NCBI RefSeq assembly: GCF_016907235.1
Contig: NZ_JAFBBO010000001.1
Span: 1,922,001-1,986,000 of the forward strand
Reading direction: 5' to 3'
DNA length: 64,000 nucleotides
From: Oerskovia jenensis
Lineage (GTDB): Bacteria > Actinomycetota > Actinomycetes > Actinomycetales > Cellulomonadaceae
Shown here piece after piece: positions 1,262 through 31,190 of the stretch. Position numbers and translations under genes: made by a program. Positions within the stretch are counted from its first letter, which is position 1. Each line of letters begins with the position of its first letter. Below the pieces are notes generated by a model. The model did no database searches and was not told the DNA's origin. It saw nothing but the letters and a program-made list of their open reading frames with translations.

Positions 1262-1671
1262 CGGGCGCCCCTCGTGACGTCGACGATCCTCTCGGCGTCG
1301 GCCAGGATGTGCGCGACCTCGGGCCGTGCGAGGCGGTACCAGGACGAGCGCCCCTCGCGCCGCGTCTCGACGAGCCCCGCCTCGCGGAGCGTCGCCAGGT
1401 GCGCGGACACCGTGGACTGTGCGAGCCCGAGCTCGCGGGTCAGGTCGACCACGCGGTGCTCGGCGACGGCGAGGAGGTGCACCACGGAGAGGCGGTGCGG
1501 CTCGGCGAGGGCGTGCAGCAGGCGCGCGACCGCGGTGTGGTCGTGCCCGACGACGGGCGGCGTGCACGGTTGCTGCGGATGCTCGGCCGCCGGCTGCTCG
1601 CCGAGACCGTCGGTGGCAGGTCGGCGCGCCCGCAGGTGCGTACGGGCGCTCGTCTCCCTTTTCATCGTCAT
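1258..1671 (-). CDS. ArsR/SmtB-family metal-sensing repressor
   Basis: A 137-residue winged-helix repressor. The HTH lies at about residues 75-98 (LTRELGLAQSTVSAHLATL), followed by the wing sequence RREGRSSWYRL. It is probably the local sensor that releases the operator when metal binds and derepresses the overlapping CDF exporter. The canonical alpha-3 ELCVC metal motif is absent; candidate ligands are Cys and His in PCTPPVVGHDH (about 35-45) and the C-terminal helix. The first ATG (1671) lies inside the palindromic region 1663-1700 with no obvious Shine-Dalgarno sequence; translation could be leaderless or start at the second ATG (1665). Assignment to the family is secure; the metal is not known. 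Confidence 0.85.
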   Translation of the reverse strand: MTMKRETSARTHLRARRPATDGLGEQPAAEHPQQPCTPPVVGHDHTAVARLLHALAEPHRLSVVHLLAVAEHRVVDLTRELGLAQSTVSAHLATLREAGLVETRREGRSSWYRLARPEVAHILADAERIVDVTRGAR

Positions 1672-1700
1672 ATAACGATGTTATCGCTCATCGGCGATGA
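1663..1700. promoter_or_regulatory. Candidate ArsR operator: nested inverted repeats at the repressor start codon
   Basis: Three overlapping palindromes sit over the repressor start: CATCGT-N6-ACGATG (1663-1680), CGAT-GTT-ATCG (1676-1686) and TCATC-GGC-GATGA (1688-1700). The region is AT-richer than its surroundings. ArsR/SmtB proteins bind such inverted repeats near the start of their own gene, so this is a plausible autoregulatory operator. Binding is inferred from position and symmetry only. Confidence 0.5.
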
Positions 1701-1703
1701 ATG

Positions 1704-2057
1704 CTAGGCCCACCCCAGCTCGTGCAGCCTGTCGTCGTCGATCCCGAAGTGGTGCGCGATCTCGTGGACGACCGTGACCACGACCTCCTCCACGACCTCC
1801 TCCCGCGTCTCGCAGATCGCGAGCGTGGGGTTGCGGAAGATCGTGATCCGGTCCGGGAGCGCCCCCGCCGCCCACATGAGGTCGCGCTCGGTCAGCGGGA
1901 CCCCCTCGTACAACCCCAGCAGCTCGGGGTCGTCGACGGGCGCGTCGTCCTCGACCAGGACGACCACGTTGTCCATCTGCTCCGCCAGCTCCTCCGGGAT
2001 CTCGTCCAGCGCATCGCGCACCGCGTCCTCGAAGTCCTCGCGCGTCATCTCCACCAC
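1704..2057 (-). CDS. Zincin-like metallopeptidase family protein
   Basis: A 117-residue protein of the small actinobacterial zincin-like metallopeptidase family (Pfam Zincin_1 type). The C-terminus carries an extended HExxHxxGxxD site, HEIAHHFGIDDDRLHELGWA, with H98, E99 and H102 as likely zinc ligand, general base and zinc ligand, and an Asp as third ligand. The N-terminal half is acidic and helical (EDFEDAVRDALDEIPEELA), typical of the family. No signal peptide, so it acts in the cytoplasm. The physiological substrate is unknown. The start could be 2057 or the in-frame ATG at 2048. It is transcribed away from the tRNA cluster and is not obviously coupled to the ArsR gene. Confidence 0.8.
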   Translation of the reverse strand: MVEMTREDFEDAVRDALDEIPEELAEQMDNVVVLVEDDAPVDDPELLGLYEGVPLTERDLMWAAGALPDRITIFRNPTLAICETREEVVEEVVVTVVHEIAHHFGIDDDRLHELGWA

Positions 2058-2118
2058 GGGACCATCCTCCCCCGCGCACCCCGCACCACCGCCCGCCGAA
2101 CCCTGGTCGCACGGCGTT

Positions 2119-2148
2119 TTGCACCACGCACCCGGTTCCCCGTATGCT
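2119..2148 (+). promoter_or_regulatory. Promoter of the tRNA-Glu/Asp/Phe cluster
   Basis: TTGCAC (2119-2124), an 18-bp spacer and TATGCT (2143-2148), about 58 bases upstream of the mature tRNA-Glu 5' end. The -10 and -35 hexamers fit a sigma-70/HrdB-type promoter, and position and orientation suit stable RNA transcription. Confidence 0.6.
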
Positions 2149-2206
2149 GACGGAGGTCTCTCGGCGACTCGTGCCCCGCAGGCGGTACGGGTCTCCAGGA
2201 AACTAG

Positions 2207-2279
2207 GCCCCCATCGTTTAGCGGCCTAGGACGCCGCCCTTTCACGGCGGTAGCACGGGTTCGAATCCCGTTGGGGGTA
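2207..2279 (+). tRNA. tRNA-Glu (anticodon TTC)
   Basis: A 73-nt cloverleaf without encoded CCA. The acceptor stem GCCCCCA pairs with TGGGGGT (first pair G-U, as common in tRNA-Glu). The anticodon loop CTTTCAC in stem CCGCC/GGCGG gives anticodon TTC, and the T arm ACGGG-TTCGAAT-CCCGT is canonical. It is the first of three clustered tRNA genes. Confidence 0.97.
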
Positions 2280-2367
2280 CTCGGAAGGATCCGATTAACG
2301 GATTCGCCCGGCAGTAAGATACGATTCTCGAGGTTCGAACGGCGCAGGCCGGGAGAAACTCACGCAA

Positions 2368-2441
2368 GGCCCTGTAGCGCAGTTGGTTAGCGCGCCGCCC
2401 TGTCACGGCGGAGGTCGCGGGTTCAAGTCCCGTCAGGGTCG
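2368..2441 (+). tRNA. tRNA-Asp (anticodon GTC)
   Basis: A 74-nt cloverleaf. Acceptor GGCCCTG pairs with CAGGGTC, anticodon loop CTGTCAC gives GTC, T loop TTCAAGT in stem GCGGG/CCCGT. The discriminator base is G73, the expected identity element for AspRS. CCA is not encoded. Confidence 0.97.
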
Positions 2442-2454
2442 CTCGACAGCGACT

Positions 2455-2478
2455 GCCCGGTCATCACGACCGGGCTTT
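2455..2478 (+). terminator. Hairpin terminator between tRNA-Asp and tRNA-Phe
   Basis: Perfect 8-bp stem GCCCGGTC / GACCGGGC with a 5-base loop (ATCAC), followed by TTT. It ends 14 bases after tRNA-Asp, so it may partially terminate or serve as a processing signal within the cluster. Confidence 0.65.
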
Positions 2479-2486
2479 CGTGTCAA

Positions 2487-2559
2487 GGCTCTGTAGCTCA
2501 GTTGGTAGAGCGTTCGACTGAAAATCGAAAGGTCACCGGATCGACGCCGGTCGGAGCCA
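2487..2559 (+). tRNA. tRNA-Phe (anticodon GAA)
   Basis: A 73-nt cloverleaf. Acceptor GGCTCTG pairs with CGGAGCC, D stem GCTC/GAGC, anticodon loop CTGAAAA gives GAA, discriminator A73. The T stem ACCGG/CCGGT is perfect but its loop reads ATCGACG: the near-universal T54 is A. CCA is not encoded. Confidence 0.95.
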
Positions 2560-2564
2560 CCCCC

Positions 2565-2603
2565 ACGAAGCCCCACCTCGTTTCCCACGAGGTGGGGCTT
2601 CGT
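2565..2603 (+). terminator. Strong terminator after tRNA-Phe
   Basis: Perfect 16-bp inverted repeat (2565-2580 with 2588-2603) around a 7-base loop, directly after the last tRNA. There is no long T run, as usual for GC-rich actinobacteria. Confidence 0.8.
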
Positions 2604-2941
2604 CGTTCCCCGGAGCCGGCGCTCGGCCCCGACTCGGCCCCCCGCCCGGCCCCCGATCTCGGGCGAGAGCGGCGCCGTCGTACCCCTGCGCGCGGCCTGC
2701 CCGACGAGACGGTCACCGCACCCGAGACGGGCGGCACGGGCCGTGACACCCGAACCCTTCTCGGGCGGGCGCGGGCCCCGCACCCAGGGAGCACATCGGA
2801 CGACCTCTCGCACGCCCGGCGCGCGGAATTGCCCTCGGGCCGGTTGACCGGTTGAGTGGGACATGAAGAAACGACTCTTCAGGGCGCGGGCAACCCCGCG
2901 CGCACGAGCGCCCCGACCGGAGCGCCAGGAAGGTGACCACC
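2604..2941. other. Non-coding spacer upstream of the holin-like gene
   Basis: No convincing reading frame or RNA gene; the overlapping frames here are antisense or low-quality. It contains a short hairpin (GCGCGGG/CCCGCGC, 2884-2901) in the probable 5' leader of the next operon and TTGACC at 2844-2849 as a possible -35 element without a clear -10 partner. Confidence 0.5.
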
Positions 2942-3364
2942 ATGAGCGACTGGGACGACGGACAGCCCCCTCCCCCGAACCCGAAGCCGTCGATCGGCAA
3001 GCTCGTCGAGCAGATGTCCGAGCAGGCCACGCGCCTGGTCCGGACCGAGATCGCGCTCGCCAAGAAGGAGCTGACGACCAAGGCCGCGCGCTCGGGCATC
3101 GGGATCGGCATGTTCGTCGTCGCCGGTGTGCTCTCGCTCTACGGGCTGGGCTTCCTCCTGCACTCCGCGATGGTCGGGCTCGCCCACGCCGTGCCGCTGT
3201 GGCTCGCGGCCCTCATCGTCGGAGTCGTGCTGTTCCTCCTCGCAGGCACCCTCGCGTTCGTCGGCAGCAAGCAGCTCAAGAAGGGGATGCCCCCGACCCC
3301 GGACGTGGCCATCGCCGGCATCAAGGAAGACGTCGCCACCGTGAAGGAAGGACTGCGCCCGTGA
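2942..3364 (+). CDS. Phage-holin-superfamily (Holin-X) membrane protein
   Basis: A 140-residue protein of the actinobacterial 'phage holin family' (Pfam Holin-X). Despite the name these are chromosomal housekeeping-like membrane proteins of unknown role, not lysis proteins. A Pro-rich N-terminus is followed by an amphipathic helix (LVRTEIALAKKEL, about 37-49) and two hydrophobic segments (about 57-80 and 88-112). The start at 2942 was preferred to the upstream GTG because an AGGAAGG Shine-Dalgarno lies 8 bases before it. It overlaps the following DUF3618 gene by 4 bp; the same pairing is common in actinobacteria, suggesting a joint envelope role. Confidence 0.8.
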   Translation: MSDWDDGQPPPPNPKPSIGKLVEQMSEQATRLVRTEIALAKKELTTKAARSGIGIGMFVVAGVLSLYGLGFLLHSAMVGLAHAVPLWLAALIVGVVLFLLAGTLAFVGSKQLKKGMPPTPDVAIAGIKEDVATVKEGLRP

Positions 3365-24241: not shown

Positions 24242-25858
<1,617 letters not shown>

Positions 25859-25859
25859 T

Positions 25860-25956
25860 TATACCCCTACCCAGAGGTCACGAGCACCAGCACCAAGCCC
25901 CGGCTCGCTGGTCAGCAACCCCTTCACGACGGGGTGCTCCGGGAGATGACCTGGCC
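25860..25956 (+). promoter_or_regulatory. SAM-IV-type riboswitch (with -10 element) upstream of flavin reductase operon
   Basis: The aptamer spans about 25875-25956. P1 is GGTCA (25876-25880) with TGACC (25947-25951). The core CAGCAACCCC followed by GGGGTGCTCC and then TGACCTGGC matches the actinobacterial SAM-IV consensus, and the same blocks recur upstream of metQ. TATACC (25860-25865) is a likely -10 just before it. A hairpin GCCGCG/CGCGGC (about 25954-25974) follows, 32 bases before the ATG, and could be the expression platform. High SAM should shut off the two reductase genes (inferred from the class). Confidence 0.75.
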
Positions 25957-26005
25957 GCGCCGGCACGACGCGGCAAGCGTGCAGCACGACGACAGTGAGG
26001 AAGCG

Positions 26006-26635
26006 ATGACCCAGCACCCTGCAGCACCCCACCCCGCCGAGCCAGGCCCCCCGCGACCGGCCGTGGTGACCCTGGTCGGCAACCCGCGGCCCGGGTCGCG
26101 GACCCTGTCGGCCGCCCGGACGGTCGCGGCCCGCGTCGCCGACCACCTGGGCCTCGCCCCGGCCGACGCGCCCGAGCCCGCCCCGACCACGATCGACCTG
26201 GCCGACCTCGCCACCGAGATCCTCGCCCCCGAGCACCCGCGGGCCGACGCCGCGCGCGAGACCGCCGCGAGCGCCGCGGTGCTGGTCGTCGCGACACCGG
26301 TCTACAAGGGCTCGTACACCGGGCTGCTCAAGGCGTTCCTCGACCTCTACGGCCCGGACGGCCTGGCCGGGGTCGTCGCCGTCCCCGTCGTGGTGTCGGG
26401 CAACCCCGCGCACGCCCTCGCGGGCGAGGTGCACCTGCGCCCGCTCCTCGTCGAGCTCGGCGCGACCGTCCCCGCACGGACGCTCACCCTCCTGGACTCC
26501 CGGCTCGACGAGGCCGACCTCACGACCGCCGTCGACGCCTGGCTCGACCACGCGGGAGGGCCCTTGCGGCGGGCGGCGAGCGACGCCGTCGGGCAGGACA
26601 CGTCCACCCCCGAGCTCGCCGAGGTGACCCGATGA
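26006..26635 (+). CDS. NAD(P)H-dependent FMN reductase (SsuE/CE1759-like)
   Basis: A 209-residue flavodoxin-fold reductase that should supply FMNH2 to the LLM monooxygenases encoded next door. The flavin-binding loop VVTLVGNPRPGSRTLSAART (about 20-39), ATPVYKGSYTGLLKAFLDLY (about 96-115, the SsuE signature) and a C-terminal helical region are present. A Pro-rich N-terminal tail is extra. GAGGAAGCG precedes the ATG at 26006. The stop overlaps the next gene by 4 bp (ATGA), so both reductases are translationally coupled. Transcription begins upstream of a SAM-IV riboswitch, tying expression to sulfur status. Confidence 0.88.
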   Translation: MTQHPAAPHPAEPGPPRPAVVTLVGNPRPGSRTLSAARTVAARVADHLGLAPADAPEPAPTTIDLADLATEILAPEHPRADAARETAASAAVLVVATPVYKGSYTGLLKAFLDLYGPDGLAGVVAVPVVVSGNPAHALAGEVHLRPLLVELGATVPARTLTLLDSRLDEADLTTAVDAWLDHAGGPLRRAASDAVGQDTSTPELAEVTR

Positions 26636-27198
26636 CCGCCGACCCCACGACCCGCCCCGACGTCGCGGGCCTCGCCGGACTCGAGGCCCTGCTCCACGAG
26701 CAGGACGAGCCGCAGCTCAGCCCCGACGCCTACAAGGCGGTGTTCCGGCAGCACCCCGCGGGCGTCGCGGTGATCGCGCTCGAGCACGAGGGCCGCCCCG
26801 TGGGCTTCACGGCGACGTCGGTCATCTCGGTCTCGGCCGCGCCGCCGCTGCTCGCGTTCTCGCTCGCGTCGACGTCGTCGTCGTGGCCCGCGATCTCGGC
26901 GGCCCGCACGGTCACGGTCAACTTCCTGGCCGCCGACCAGGACGACGTGTCGGCACGCTTCGCGACGAGCGGGACCGACCGCTTCGCGGCCGGCGGCTGG
27001 TCCCCTCTCGAGTCCGGGGAGCCCGTGATCGACGGCGCGCTGTCCTGGGTGCGCGGCCGCATCATCCAGCGCACGCCCGTGGGCGACAGCTACCTGGTCT
27101 CGCTGCGCGCACTCGCGTCGGGGACCCGGGCAGGCGCGACGCCGCTCGTCTACCACGACCGGTCCTACCACCGGATCGGGGACCACTCGGCTCTCTGA
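26632..27198 (+). CDS. Flavin reductase family protein (FMN-binding split barrel)
   Basis: A 188-residue flavin reductase of the split-barrel type, reducing FMN or FAD with NAD(P)H for two-component monooxygenases. Conserved block: VFRQHPAGVAVIALEHEGRP (about 37-56), VGFTATSVISVSAAPPLLAF (about 57-76), RTVTVNFLAADQ, and GALSWVRGRI near 136-145; the C-terminal YHDRSYHRIG is typical. It overlaps the FMN reductase gene by 4 bp. Two different reductases in one SAM-controlled operon implies that FMNH2 supply is the regulated item. Ends at the hairpin 27214-27255. Confidence 0.88.
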   Translation: MTADPTTRPDVAGLAGLEALLHEQDEPQLSPDAYKAVFRQHPAGVAVIALEHEGRPVGFTATSVISVSAAPPLLAFSLASTSSSWPAISAARTVTVNFLAADQDDVSARFATSGTDRFAAGGWSPLESGEPVIDGALSWVRGRIIQRTPVGDSYLVSLRALASGTRAGATPLVYHDRSYHRIGDHSAL

Positions 27199-27213
27199 GC
27201 CCCACGATCCGGG

Positions 27214-27255
27214 TGAGGGGCCCGACGGCGGTTCGCACCGCCGTCGGGCCCCTCA
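27214..27255. terminator. Bidirectional terminator between flavin reductase and metI
   Basis: Perfect 19-bp inverted repeat (27214-27232 with 27237-27255), loop TCGC. It lies 15 bases after the reductase stop and 45 bases beyond the metI stop of the converging operon. Confidence 0.85.
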
Positions 27256-27300
27256 CCTGTGCCCGGCGCGCGCCGGGCACGGGGGCGCCGGACTGCCGGG

Positions 27301-27969
27301 CTACCGGACGATGCGGTGGTCCCACCTGCGCACGAGCCGATTGCCGACCACCTGGAACACCTGGACGAGCAGGACGATCACGGCCACCGAGAACACCATG
27401 ACGTCCGTCTGGAACAGGTTGTAGCCGTACCGGATCGCGAAGTCACCGACCCCGCCCCCGCCGACGATCCCCACGATCGTCGTGTACGACACGAACGCGA
27501 CCAGGAGGATGATCGACGCGTTCACGAGCAGCGGGAACGACTCGCGGAGAAGGACCCGGAAGACGATCCGCAACCTGCCCGCGCCCAACGCCTCGGCCGC
27601 CTCGATCGACCCCCTGTCGGCGGCGAGGAGGCTCTGCTCGGCGAGGCGTGCGAAGTAGGGCACGGCACTGACCACGAGCGGGACCGTCGCGGCCGTCGTG
27701 CCGATCGCCGTCCCGACGATCAGGCGCGTGACCGGGACCATGAGGACCGCCAGCAGGAGGAACGGCACCGAGCGCCCGAGGTTCACGATCCCGTTGAGGA
27801 CCGCGAACCACGCCCGGTGCGGGCGCAGGCCGTCCGCGCTCGTGACGCGCAGGAGCACGGCCACGGTGAGCCCGAGGACGATCCCCACGGGCCAGCAGAT
27901 CGCGAGCATGTACAGCGTCTGCCCGAGGGCCACCAGGAGGTCCGGGAAGGCCGCGACGACGTTCTCCAT
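27301..27969 (-). CDS. metI: Methionine-type ABC importer permease
   Basis: A 222-residue MetI-like permease (family 215-225) with five predicted membrane helices: about 14-40, 55-80, 90-110, 148-172 and 190-212. Signature stretches: LNGIVNLGRSVPFLLLAVLM, SIEAAEALGAGRLRIVFRVL (EAA loop) and SYTTIVGIVGGGGVGDFAIR. It forms the channel for D/L-methionine or a related thioether delivered by the MetQ-like lipoprotein. ATG at 27969 overlaps the ATPase stop (TGATG). Last gene of the SAM-riboswitch-controlled operon. Confidence 0.9.
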   Translation of the reverse strand: MENVVAAFPDLLVALGQTLYMLAICWPVGIVLGLTVAVLLRVTSADGLRPHRAWFAVLNGIVNLGRSVPFLLLAVLMVPVTRLIVGTAIGTTAATVPLVVSAVPYFARLAEQSLLAADRGSIEAAEALGAGRLRIVFRVLLRESFPLLVNASIILLVAFVSYTTIVGIVGGGGVGDFAIRYGYNLFQTDVMVFSVAVIVLLVQVFQVVGNRLVRRWDHRIVR

Positions 27970-28745
27970 CAGACCCTCACCCCCTCGACCGCGCGTGTCC
28001 CGTCGAGGCGGATCCTGTCGTCCACGAGGAAGCGCCCGATCCTGCTCGTCGGGAGATGGTCCTCGACGCGAGGGTCGAAGCGCTCGACGACCCGTCCCGC
28101 CTCCATGACCACGACGTCGTCGCAGATCGCCCGGACGACGTTCATCTCGTGCGTCACGAGCACGATCGTGATCCCCAGCTCGACGTTGACGCGCTGGAGG
28201 TAGGACAGGATCGTCCCCGTCGTCTCCGGGTCGACCGCGGAGGTCGGCTCGTCGCAGAGCAGGACCCGGGGCGAGTTCGCGAGAGCCCTGGCGATCCCCA
28301 CGCGCTGCTTCTGACCGCCCGACAACGACGCCGGGTAGTCGCGTGCCTTGTCCTCGATGTCGAGGATCGCCAGGCACTCCTCGATCCGCCGGCGCCGAGC
28401 TCTCCGGGGGACCCCCGCGACCTCGAGGGCGAACCCCACGTTGTCGTGGACGGTCGCCTGCGCAAGGAGGTTGAAGTGCTGGAACACCATGCCGATGCTC
28501 CGCCGGAACTCCCGCAGCCCCCGCCGGTCCAGGGCCGTGATGTCGACCCCGTCGACGCTCACCGTGCCCGCGTCGGGGCGTTCCAGGAGGTTCGTCGTCC
28601 GCAGGAGGGTCGACTTCCCGGCACCGCTGAACCCGATGATGCCCTGCACGCCCCCGGTGGCGACGTCGAACGAGACGTCGTCGAGCGCGTGCACCTCGTC
28701 ACCGTGCACGTGAAAGGTCTTGTCGACGTTCCGGTAGGAGATCAT
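27969..28745 (-). CDS. metN: Methionine-type ABC importer ATP-binding protein, short form lacking NIL domain
   Basis: A 258-residue ATPase. Walker A GFSGAGKST (about 38-46), Q-loop MVFQHFNLL, signature LSGGQKQRVGIARAL, Walker B VLLCDEPTSAVD and the H-loop LVTHEMNVV are intact, and the sequence is closest to MetN by its HFNLL and LCDEPTSAVDPETT stretches. Typical MetN has about 340 residues with a C-terminal NIL/ACT-like domain that binds methionine for trans-inhibition; here that domain is missing and only about 30 residues follow the ATPase core. The gene is 10 bp downstream of the LLM gene and overlaps metI by one base. Confidence 0.88.
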   Translation of the reverse strand: MISYRNVDKTFHVHGDEVHALDDVSFDVATGGVQGIIGFSGAGKSTLLRTTNLLERPDAGTVSVDGVDITALDRRGLREFRRSIGMVFQHFNLLAQATVHDNVGFALEVAGVPRRARRRRIEECLAILDIEDKARDYPASLSGGQKQRVGIARALANSPRVLLCDEPTSAVDPETTGTILSYLQRVNVELGITIVLVTHEMNVVRAICDDVVVMEAGRVVERFDPRVEDHLPTSRIGRFLVDDRIRLDGTRAVEGVRV

Positions 28746-28755
28746 CGTCGCCCCC

Positions 28756-30150
28756 TCACGCCGTGGGCACGTGCTGCGAGACGCTGGGCAGGGTGTCGAA
28801 GTGTCCCGTGAAACGGCTCTCGTCCGACACCGGCGCGGGCAGGCCCAGCCTGTCCCTCAGCGTCCCCTCCCCGTAGGAGGACTCGGTGAGCCCGCGACGC
28901 TGGAGGATCGGGACGACCTCGTCGACGAACTGCTCGAACGAGCGAGGCAGGACCGGCGGGATGACGCTCACCCCGTCGAGGGCTCCGCGTTCGAACCAGT
29001 GCTGGATGCCGTCGGCCACGTCCTCGGGCGTCCCCACGATCGTGCGGTGGAACGAGCCCGAGTCCACCCAGGCCAGGACCTCCCGCAGGGTGTAGGTGCC
29101 GGTCGAGGTGTACTCCGCGATGCGGTAGGCGAGGGACTTGCTCTGCCCCGTGTCCCGGGCGTCGGACACGAGGTCCACGGGGAACGGTCCGTCGAGGGCG
29201 TAGCCGTCGAGAGAGCGGTCGATCACCGTGGACACCCGTTCGAGCAACCTGTCGGTGCCGTGCAGGTCGAGCAGCTCGTGCTGCAGCTCCTGGGCCTCAC
29301 GGACGGACCGCCCGATGAACGGGATGAGGCCGGGAGCGACGACCACCGCACCGGGACGCCGTCCGTACGCGGCCGCTCGCGACCGGACGTCGGTACGGAA
29401 CCTCACGGCCTCGTCGAGGTCGTTCTGCTGGACGTAGACGAGGTCCGCGTACCGGGCCGCGAGGTCGCGCCCGGACTCCGAGCTCCCCGCCTGCGCGAGC
29501 AGCGGCACGGCCTGCGGGCTTCGCGGGACGTTGAGCGGGCCGCGCACCGAGAAGTACGTCCCCTGGTGGTTGACGGCCCGGATCCCGTCGGTGTCGACCA
29601 GCCGGTCGGCCGCGCGGTCCGCCACCACGGCGTCGGCCCGCCACGCGTTCCACAGGTCGATGGTCACGTCGAGGTACTCGGCCGCCCGCCGGTAGCGCTC
29701 GTCGTGCTCGGGGAGCACGTCGAGACCGTAGTTGGGTGCGGCGAGGTCCGTCGAGGACGTCACCACGTTCCAGCCCGCCCGGCCACCGCTGACGTGATCG
29801 AGCGACGCGAACTGACGCGCGGTGTTGAACGGGACGTTGAACGTGGTGCTGTGGGTCCCGATCAGCCCGATGTGCGTGGTCCGCGCCGCCACCGCACCGA
29901 GGATCGTGACCGGGTCGAGCGGCCACTGCAGCGCGTCCTCGGGGTTGGCCGACGCCGCGAGGGTGTCGGTGAGGAACAGGCTGTCGAAGACGCCACGTTC
30001 GGCCGTGCGCGCCAGGTCGGCGTAGTAGTCGAGCGTCGGGACCCGTTCGATCTCGCTGGACCGGTGCCGCCAGCCCGCACCGTGCGATCCCTGCACGCGC
30101 AGGACGAAGTTGAGGACGAGCCTGGGGCGCCGGCTCCCCGCGGTGGCCAT
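28756..30150 (-). CDS. LLM flavin-dependent monooxygenase, NtaA/SnaA/DszA family
   Basis: A 464-residue FMNH2-dependent TIM-barrel monooxygenase (luciferase-like). Its family oxidises N- or S-containing substrates, e.g. DszA (sulfones), NtaA (nitrilotriacetate) and CmoJ (S-alkyl-N-acetylcysteines). Family blocks: ARTAERGVFDSLFLTDTLAA (about 47-66), LIGTHSTTFNVPFNTARQFA (about 100-119), LDHVSGGRAGWNVVTSSTDL and PLLAQAGSSESGRDLAARYA. The gene lies inside the met importer operon, between metQ and metN, overlapping the metQ stop by one base (TGATG). This suggests that the transported compound is an S-alkyl or thioether substrate rather than only methionine. Confidence 0.9.
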   Translation of the reverse strand: MATAGSRRPRLVLNFVLRVQGSHGAGWRHRSSEIERVPTLDYYADLARTAERGVFDSLFLTDTLAASANPEDALQWPLDPVTILGAVAARTTHIGLIGTHSTTFNVPFNTARQFASLDHVSGGRAGWNVVTSSTDLAAPNYGLDVLPEHDERYRRAAEYLDVTIDLWNAWRADAVVADRAADRLVDTDGIRAVNHQGTYFSVRGPLNVPRSPQAVPLLAQAGSSESGRDLAARYADLVYVQQNDLDEAVRFRTDVRSRAAAYGRRPGAVVVAPGLIPFIGRSVREAQELQHELLDLHGTDRLLERVSTVIDRSLDGYALDGPFPVDLVSDARDTGQSKSLAYRIAEYTSTGTYTLREVLAWVDSGSFHRTIVGTPEDVADGIQHWFERGALDGVSVIPPVLPRSFEQFVDEVVPILQRRGLTESSYGEGTLRDRLGLPAPVSDESRFTGHFDTLPSVSQHVPTA

Positions 30151-31037
30151 CAGCCGGCCTGCTTCCACGTCGCGATGTCCTCGGTGGGGTCGTACTCCCA
30201 CGGGTAGAAGCCGATGCCCCCGTTGAACTCCAGGTCCGCCTGCCTGTACTCCTCGGAGTGGTACGCCTCCTCGAGGTCCTTCGTCGTCTGGGAGTCGAGC
30301 AGCTCGGACCGGGTCGCCGCGATGATCGTGTACGGCCGGGACGTGGCGATGTCGTCGAGCGCGAGCGCGTCCTCGCCCGGCGTGAAGCCGTTGTTCTTCG
30401 CGCCGCTGCTGTACAGGAAGCCGATGTCCAGGTCGGCGAGCGTCTTGGCGATGAGGGTGGCGTCCAGCTCCCGGAAGTCGAGGTTCTTCGGGTTGGACGA
30501 GATGTCCTTGACCGAGGTGTAGACGGACGAGACCGTCGGTCCGAGCTCGATGACTCCTGCCTCGGCCAGGATGGTGAGCGCCCGCCCCACGTTGGACGGC
30601 TCGTTCGGGATGCCGACGACGGCTCCGTCCGGCAGGGCCGCCAAGGAGTCGACCTTCGTGGAGTAGAACCCGGCCGGAGCGAGCGCCGTGTAGAAGGCGG
30701 GCACGATGTCCGCACCCGTCTTCTCGGTCTGCGACAGGAGGTAGACCGTGTGCGTACCCACGTGGTAGTCCGCCTCGCCGTTGGCCACGGCACCGGCGGC
30801 CGCCTGGAAGTCGGTGATGCTCGAGGCGTCGACCGTGTAGCCCTTGGCCTCGAGCTTGTCCGTGATGACCGGGATCGCGAAGTCGGCGTTGGTGGCGAAG
30901 AGGATCTTGACGTTCTTGTCGTCGTCCGGGTCCGCGGCGGACGAGTGTGTGGCGCACGCCGCGAGGGCGAGGGCCGCGGTGACGGCGAGCGCTGCGGTCG
31001 TCAGCCGGGGCGGGCGACGATCGGTGGTGCCGGGCAT
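30150..31037 (-). CDS. metQ: MetQ/NlpA-family methionine-binding lipoprotein
   Basis: A 295-residue substrate-binding lipoprotein, lipidated at Cys28 in ALALAACAT. The MetQ fold is shown by VKILFATNADFAIPVITDKL (about 43-62), YTVDASSITDFQAAAGAVAN, a GIPNEPSNVGRALTILAEAG segment (about 139-158) and NGGIGFYPWEYDPTED near the end. The ligand should be methionine or a related thioether; the neighbouring monooxygenase hints at the latter. GGAGA lies 7 bases before the ATG at 31037. It is the first gene after the SAM-IV riboswitch. Confidence 0.9.
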   Translation of the reverse strand: MPGTTDRRPPRLTTAALAVTAALALAACATHSSAADPDDDKNVKILFATNADFAIPVITDKLEAKGYTVDASSITDFQAAAGAVANGEADYHVGTHTVYLLSQTEKTGADIVPAFYTALAPAGFYSTKVDSLAALPDGAVVGIPNEPSNVGRALTILAEAGVIELGPTVSSVYTSVKDISSNPKNLDFRELDATLIAKTLADLDIGFLYSSGAKNNGFTPGEDALALDDIATSRPYTIIAATRSELLDSQTTKDLEEAYHSEEYRQADLEFNGGIGFYPWEYDPTEDIATWKQAG

Positions 31038-31085
31038 GGGTGTCTCCTGGAGGCAGTGGTCCCGCGAAGAGGGGACTCGGTGCTT

Positions 31086-31190
31086 GCGGCCGTCGGACGA
31101 CGGCCGCCAGGTCTTGCTCGGGAGCACCCCACCACGACGCGAGGGTTGCTGATCCACCTGCCGAGCCAGACGGTGGATCTCGTGACCGCG
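31086..31190 (-). promoter_or_regulatory. SAM-IV-type riboswitch upstream of metQ operon
   Basis: Read on the minus strand, GGTCACGAG (from 31187) opens P1, which closes with GACC (near 31113-31110). Between them are CAGCAACCCTC and GGTGGGGTGCTCCCGAG, the SAM-IV core; the same blocks precede the flavin reductase operon. P1 is followed at once by a perfect 9-bp hairpin (31086-31107) that overlaps the 3' arm of P1 by two bases and could switch between states. It lies 49 bases before metQ. SAM binding should repress the operon (known for the class). Confidence 0.8.

Follow-up and report, generated by a model that had tools for sequence, protein, structure and literature searches.

A SAM-IV riboswitch ahead of a putative FMNH2-supply operon of two flavin reductases in an Oerskovia-group actinobacterium

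The FMN reductase gene ssuI is part of the sulfonate genes of Corynebacterium glutamicum. In this species the FMNH2-dependent sulfonate monooxygenase gene ssuD1 is under the staged control of McbR, CysR and SsuR (PMC2580772). The physiology is the same as that considered here and the host is likewise an actinobacterium, but control, as described in the portion of that paper available, is exerted by DNA-binding proteins and not by a riboswitch. In Bacillus methanolicus a SAM riboswitch lies ahead of the sulfonate-uptake operon ssuA1-ssuC1-ssuB1 (PMC4342826) and so, as here, ahead of genes for organosulfur acquisition. However, that bacterium belongs to another phylum, the element is listed there as a plain SAM (S-box) one, the genes are those of a transporter, and the available part of the article makes no mention of a flavin reductase. 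For SAM-IV, the available excerpts name as targets an O-acetylhomoserine sulfhydrylase (PMC3774663) and a gene annotated as a cysteine desulfurase (PMC8079986), both of which differ from the targets at the present locus; neither mentions flavin reductases. A full-text literature search for a SAM riboswitch with a flavin reductase, or with a monooxygenase and sulfonate, returned no report, and this target class appears to be undescribed in the literature searched. An earlier note on this DNA had called the target uncommon; this stands for flavin reductases, whereas sulfur acquisition was already a known target of SAM riboswitches, as the excerpt of PMC4342826 indicates. As in the SsuE/SsuD alkanesulfonate system, an SsuE-like reductase and an SsuD-like LLM monooxygenase are found in one island here. 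However, ORF1 and the SsuD-like LLM both score under the NCBIfam equivalog cut-offs, and here two different reductases stand in tandem behind their own promoter and riboswitch.

The host is a soil bacterium related to Oerskovia, and its 4.45 Mb genome is contained in one contig, of which the window analysed is a stretch of 64,000 nucleotides. The features of the reductase locus are as follows.

25816..25826, + strand: TGAGAATTCTC block (GAGAATTCTC palindrome), probable activator site, from the conserved position of GAGA in the leaders; the activator itself is putative
25860..25865, + strand: TATACC, a -10-like box (31/46 distinct leaders against 0.19 in shuffles)
25876..25985, + strand: SAM-IV riboswitch aptamer (Rfam RF00634; PK-1 and PK-2 covary in relatives)
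25925..25928, + strand: 5′ strand of PK-2, CACG in the P3 loop (columns 65-68 of alignment A5)
25978..25981, + strand: 3′ strand of PK-2, CGTG in the tail (columns 164-167 of alignment A5)
25997..26001, + strand: Shine-Dalgarno sequence GAGGA, from the sequence
26006..26635, + strand: ORF1, SsuE-like NAD(P)H:FMN reductase of the flavodoxin fold family (PF03358, TIGR03567, PDB relatives)
26632..27198, + strand: ORF2, split-barrel flavin reductase (PF01613, NCBIfam HsaB, PDB relatives)
27210..27258, no strand assigned: strong hairpin, probable bidirectional terminator (fold z-score -6.5, no T-run)

The whole window was scanned against all families of Rfam 15 with cmscan. RF00634 was matched at 25876-25985 on the + strand with 90.7 bits (E = 4.8e-15), well above the gathering cut-off of 38, and the match covers the model at full length (positions 1-116). 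The SAM-IV identity proposed in the earlier note is thereby borne out, and the blocks it had quoted, CAGCAACCCC and GGGGTGCTCC together with P1 GGTCA/TGACC, are each present in the window. The aptamer begins at 25876 and not at 25860, where the note had placed the element; 25860-25865 is the TATACC box. P1, P2, P3, P5, PK-1 and PK-2 were all found, so that in score, length, helices, pseudoknots and actinomycetotal host the element is like other members of RF00634, and the pairing of the P3 loop with the 3′ end in PK-2 agrees with the cryo-EM structure of SAM-IV, as far as the available part of that report describes it (PMC6890682). The relatives carrying the aptamer are also Actinomycetota, and it stands in the 5′ leader of a gene whose link to sulfur comes from gene context. 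Judged by its sequence, this RNA is an ordinary SAM-IV, for which the ligand would be SAM.

A model was built from 32 aptamers, excluding the weak aptamer of L005, and 71 matches were then aligned. Over the 68 distinct rows, 95.7% of cells are paired. PK-1 and PK-2 lie outside the structure of the model; both show covariation, with 98.2% and 85.3% of cells paired respectively. For PK-2 there were 37 double-change cells compared with 12.4 (sd 2.6) in shuffles, none of 500 shuffles reaching as high. The aptamers ahead of flavin reductases also carry a signature of their own: column 85 is A in 44/46 of this class (2/22 other aptamers) and column 89 is U in 40/46 (1/22). These columns sit outside the conserved core and would extend P1 to five pairs. 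Such a signature might mean that the flavin-class aptamer senses a different ligand or is tuned to a different SAM level. We regard this as very unlikely, given that neither class varies in P1 or in most of the P3 core and that the full-length Rfam match is far over the cut-off.

Behind the aptamer, at a distance of 20 nt, lies an operon that contains only the two reductases proposed in the earlier note, and its wording 'rather than Met genes' is fair. ORF1 matched PF03358 (FMN_red) with 81.1 bits (cut-off 24) and TIGR03567 (SsuE) with 84.1 bits, below the equivalog cut-off of 164.05. ORF2 matched PF01613 (Flavin_Reduct) with 116.1 bits (cut-off 27), and its best NCBIfam match was HsaB (NF045630) with 106.1 bits, under the equivalog cut-off of 230. 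We therefore name the products SsuE-like and HsaB-like only. The nearest solved structures in the PDB are FMN reductases for ORF1 and mostly flavin reductases for ORF2. The stop codon of ORF1 overlaps the start codon of ORF2 by 4 bases (ATGA), and the hairpin at 27210-27258 marks the end of the operon, ahead of the convergent MetI gene.

SAM-IV is present in 134 of 150 family genomes, and the same genomes were searched for ORF1 and ORF2. Regions were taken around 60 strong ORF1 matches, a few more ORF1 matches, ORF2-only matches and other SAM-IV sites, a subset of all matches. Counting pairs over 81 sources (tblastn, at least 100 bits), SAM-IV was found upstream on the same strand at 32/58 loci with both genes and was lacking at the other 26; it was found at 0/5 loci with ORF1 only and at 6/10 with ORF2 only. 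An arrangement that recurs in 32 of 58 loci is more than chance. Within the Oerskovia group, six of the seven genomes contain SAM-IV together with the reductase pair. When loci were instead found by an ORF2 profile, 36 of the 80 named loci had SAM-IV upstream, and the positive genera are Oerskovia, Cellulosimicrobium, Cellulomonas, Sanguibacter, Isoptericola, Krasilnikoviella and Puerhibacterium. Mapped onto an ORF2 protein tree with 78 tips (36 with and 42 without SAM-IV; L255 and L270 were dropped as they are cut by a contig end), the riboswitch trait requires 9 changes compared with 26 when labels are shuffled, and the well-supported branches require at least 4. Several of these changes may be losses. 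Sixteen of the 44 negative loci were scanned for other Rfam families above the cut-off and none was found, the sole match being a divergent SAM-IV in L267. A riboswitch remnant (8.9 bits) was seen at L137:7609-7735, which retains the 5′ end, the P5 region, the tail and the leader of its relatives but has lost the binding core. That the window aptamer is itself a decayed, non-functional copy is scarcely credible in spite of such decay in a relative, as it scores 90.7 bits with every helix kept and its pairing with the reductases is conserved in six of the seven Oerskovia-group genomes. On the same ORF2 tree, L208, whose record is titled Sphaerisporangium cinnabarinum, falls inside Cellulosimicrobium and is probably a mislabelled genome.

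A scan of the leader for the sigma-70 consensus found no promoter. The TATACC box lies 8-11 bases ahead of the aptamer. GAGA is present at -90 to -35 in 45 of 46 distinct leaders. Among the 31 leaders with both GAGA and TATACC, the former starts 42-43 bases ahead of the latter in 30. The composite pattern TGAGA/TATACC has a single occurrence in the 4.45 Mb genome, at the reductase operon. A genome-wide regulon of TGAGA/TATACC promoters was rejected, since this is the only place in the genome where the composite is found. The spacing of the GAGA block and TATACC resembles the site of an activator that might work together with the riboswitch. By eye, a Promicromonospora leader without the riboswitch (L104) has the GAGA block and TATACC at equal spacing.

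At the other end of the leader, the Shine-Dalgarno sequence of the window starts 20 nt past the GCAA that is conserved in the aptamer tail and 16 nt past PK-2. This gap was measured in 42 leaders, four more being omitted because the model mis-set the aptamer end: the start codon lies 16-33 nt past GCAA in 38 and 112-116 nt past it in 4. A separate count gave the same kind of result, with 9/46 leaders unassigned. The leader of L131 reads GGCAAGCGTGAGAGGAGACCCATG, which puts PK-2 and the ribosome site almost in contact. Folding of the 42 leaders, free or with the aptamer enforced, found no conserved hairpin hiding the ribosome site, the mean predicted exposure of which was 0.41 free and 0.39 enforced. 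Simple sequestration of the ribosome site was therefore rejected. A pairing of the P3 loop with the Shine-Dalgarno sequence, seen by eye in the window, was dropped as it is absent from Cellulosimicrobium leaders. No intrinsic terminator was found between the aptamer and ORF1, nor any terminator-like element in the leader, and an intrinsic-terminator mechanism was likewise rejected. The leader of the window shows no extra stability over shuffles (z = +1.47, with pseudoknots outside the fold model). Taken together, the unchanged exposure of the ribosome site, the lack of a terminator and the unremarkable plain fold lead us to prefer steric blocking by the closed pseudoknot as the putative mode of control. 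Control could instead be transcriptional, through Rho-dependent or other early termination; this would fit with the lack of a hairpin toggling with the aptamer, and with the four leaders whose start codon is distant from it. We consider it the less probable mode, though one to be taken seriously, since an intrinsic terminator is absent between aptamer and gene and the gap in the remaining 38 leaders is so short.

The second SAM-IV element in the window heads an operon that converges on the reductase genes.

31075..31187, - strand: second SAM-IV aptamer (RF00634, 77 bits), heading MetQ-LLM-MetN-MetI
30150-31037, - strand: MetQ-like gene, behind the second SAM-IV (family searches)
28756-30144, - strand: LLM monooxygenase gene, behind the second SAM-IV (family searches)
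27969-28745, - strand: MetN gene, behind the second SAM-IV (family searches)
27301-28041, - strand: MetI gene, behind the second SAM-IV (family searches)

This element agrees with the earlier note, in which a like aptamer was said to precede metQ. The LLM gene stands behind its own SAM-IV, and hence the supply of reductant and part of the demand for it would share one signal. With the exception of this gene, the Rfam scan of the window detected no SAM-IV near its LLM genes. The proposal that reducing power for the LLM monooxygenases is tuned to the level of SAM thus agrees with the aptamer, the reductase-only operon and the LLM context, but was overstated as regards the other LLM genes of the window. 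In relatives, SAM-IV was also found ahead of LLM genes at L134, L162, L167, L173 and L174.

More widely, an LLM gene lies within 8 kb at 35 of 57 pair loci (a count that omits the window and L169) compared with 1 of 20 arbitrary control regions of related genomes. LLM genes are about equally common at pair loci with SAM-IV (21/31) and without it (14/26). The six Oerskovia-group genomes with the reductase pair all contain the SsuD-like LLM (at least 95% identity), and the seventh, which lacks the pair, contains no close match to this LLM. As the SsuD-like LLM is physically linked to the pair, this co-occurrence counts as one event and not six. The riboswitch may be real and yet the reductases act chiefly in flavin reduction at large, or for flavin-dependent enzymes other than the LLM sulfur enzymes: ORF2 is closest to the HsaB/HpaC-type reductases of aromatic hydroxylases, and no LLM gene lies within 8 kb at 22 of the 57 pair loci. 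Set against the enrichment of LLM genes, the joint absence of pair and SsuD-like LLM from one genome and a SAM-dependent control that fits sulfur best, we think this improbable.

The best reading, which we hold to be likely, is that SAM-dependent control is placed on the supply of FMNH2 for organosulfur scavenging. A genuine SAM-IV makes up the 5′ leader of the operon, whose two genes would supply reduced flavin. When SAM is plentiful, the aptamer would close through P1, PK-1 and PK-2 immediately beside the ribosome-binding site, and both reductases would be less expressed. When SAM is low, the reductases would be made and FMNH2 delivered to LLM monooxygenases, one of them behind the second SAM-IV in the window, which would free sulfur from organosulfur compounds. 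The arrangement is kept in many related bacteria, and hence these helper enzymes of organic-sulfur scavenging are probably off when SAM is plentiful. SAM-IV ahead of reductases is ordinary sulfur-starvation logic. With it, the SAM-IV regulon would reach beyond methionine and cysteine genes and take in the provision of a reduced cofactor; if so, the level of SAM would gate sulfur uptake, cleavage and also the NAD(P)H spent on producing FMNH2. Moreover, repeated riboswitch loss and the same promoter spacing in a riboswitch-free relative make the modularity of RNA control testable. A far more speculative scheme, to which we give little weight, is that across Cellulomonadaceae and Promicromonosporaceae SAM-IV coordinates operons of FMNH2-using monooxygenases with a separate, stand-alone FMNH2-supply operon. 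The latter would respond at a different SAM threshold through a specialised aptamer (extended P1, columns 85/89), in addition to an activator site of its own that lies at a constant distance.

The host genome contains five SAM-IV elements, which precede a class-V aminotransferase gene (PF00266), the ORF1-ORF2 pair, MetQ-LLM-MetN-MetI, a peptide-type ABC operon that encodes SBP_bac_5, an ATPase and two permeases, and a small gene that matches no Pfam family. Over the seven Oerskovia-group genomes there are 29, divided between the aminotransferase (7), ORF1-ORF2 (6), the small gene (7), the peptide ABC operon (3), MetQ-LLM (1), an LLM-OppB operon (1) and others (4). All seven genomes have a lower-scoring SAM-IV (62-66 bits) ahead of two genes, a small one of 122 aa that matches no Pfam family and another that is conserved (L008:2472-2583 and L008:2689-3903; L183, L191-L195). 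In two of them (L187 and L188, about 1501-3118) a SAM-IV of 68 bits stands ahead of an uncharacterised gene, and the frame after this gene resembles, by eye, a GIY-YIG-type nuclease. At L189 and L190, SAM-IV elements of 66-68 bits have no clear gene directly 3′ and are possibly orphan or mobile copies. Lastly, SAM-IV elements were found back-to-back on opposite strands, with divergent genes, at L103, L128, L162, L164, L174, L212, L221, L229, L234 and L248.
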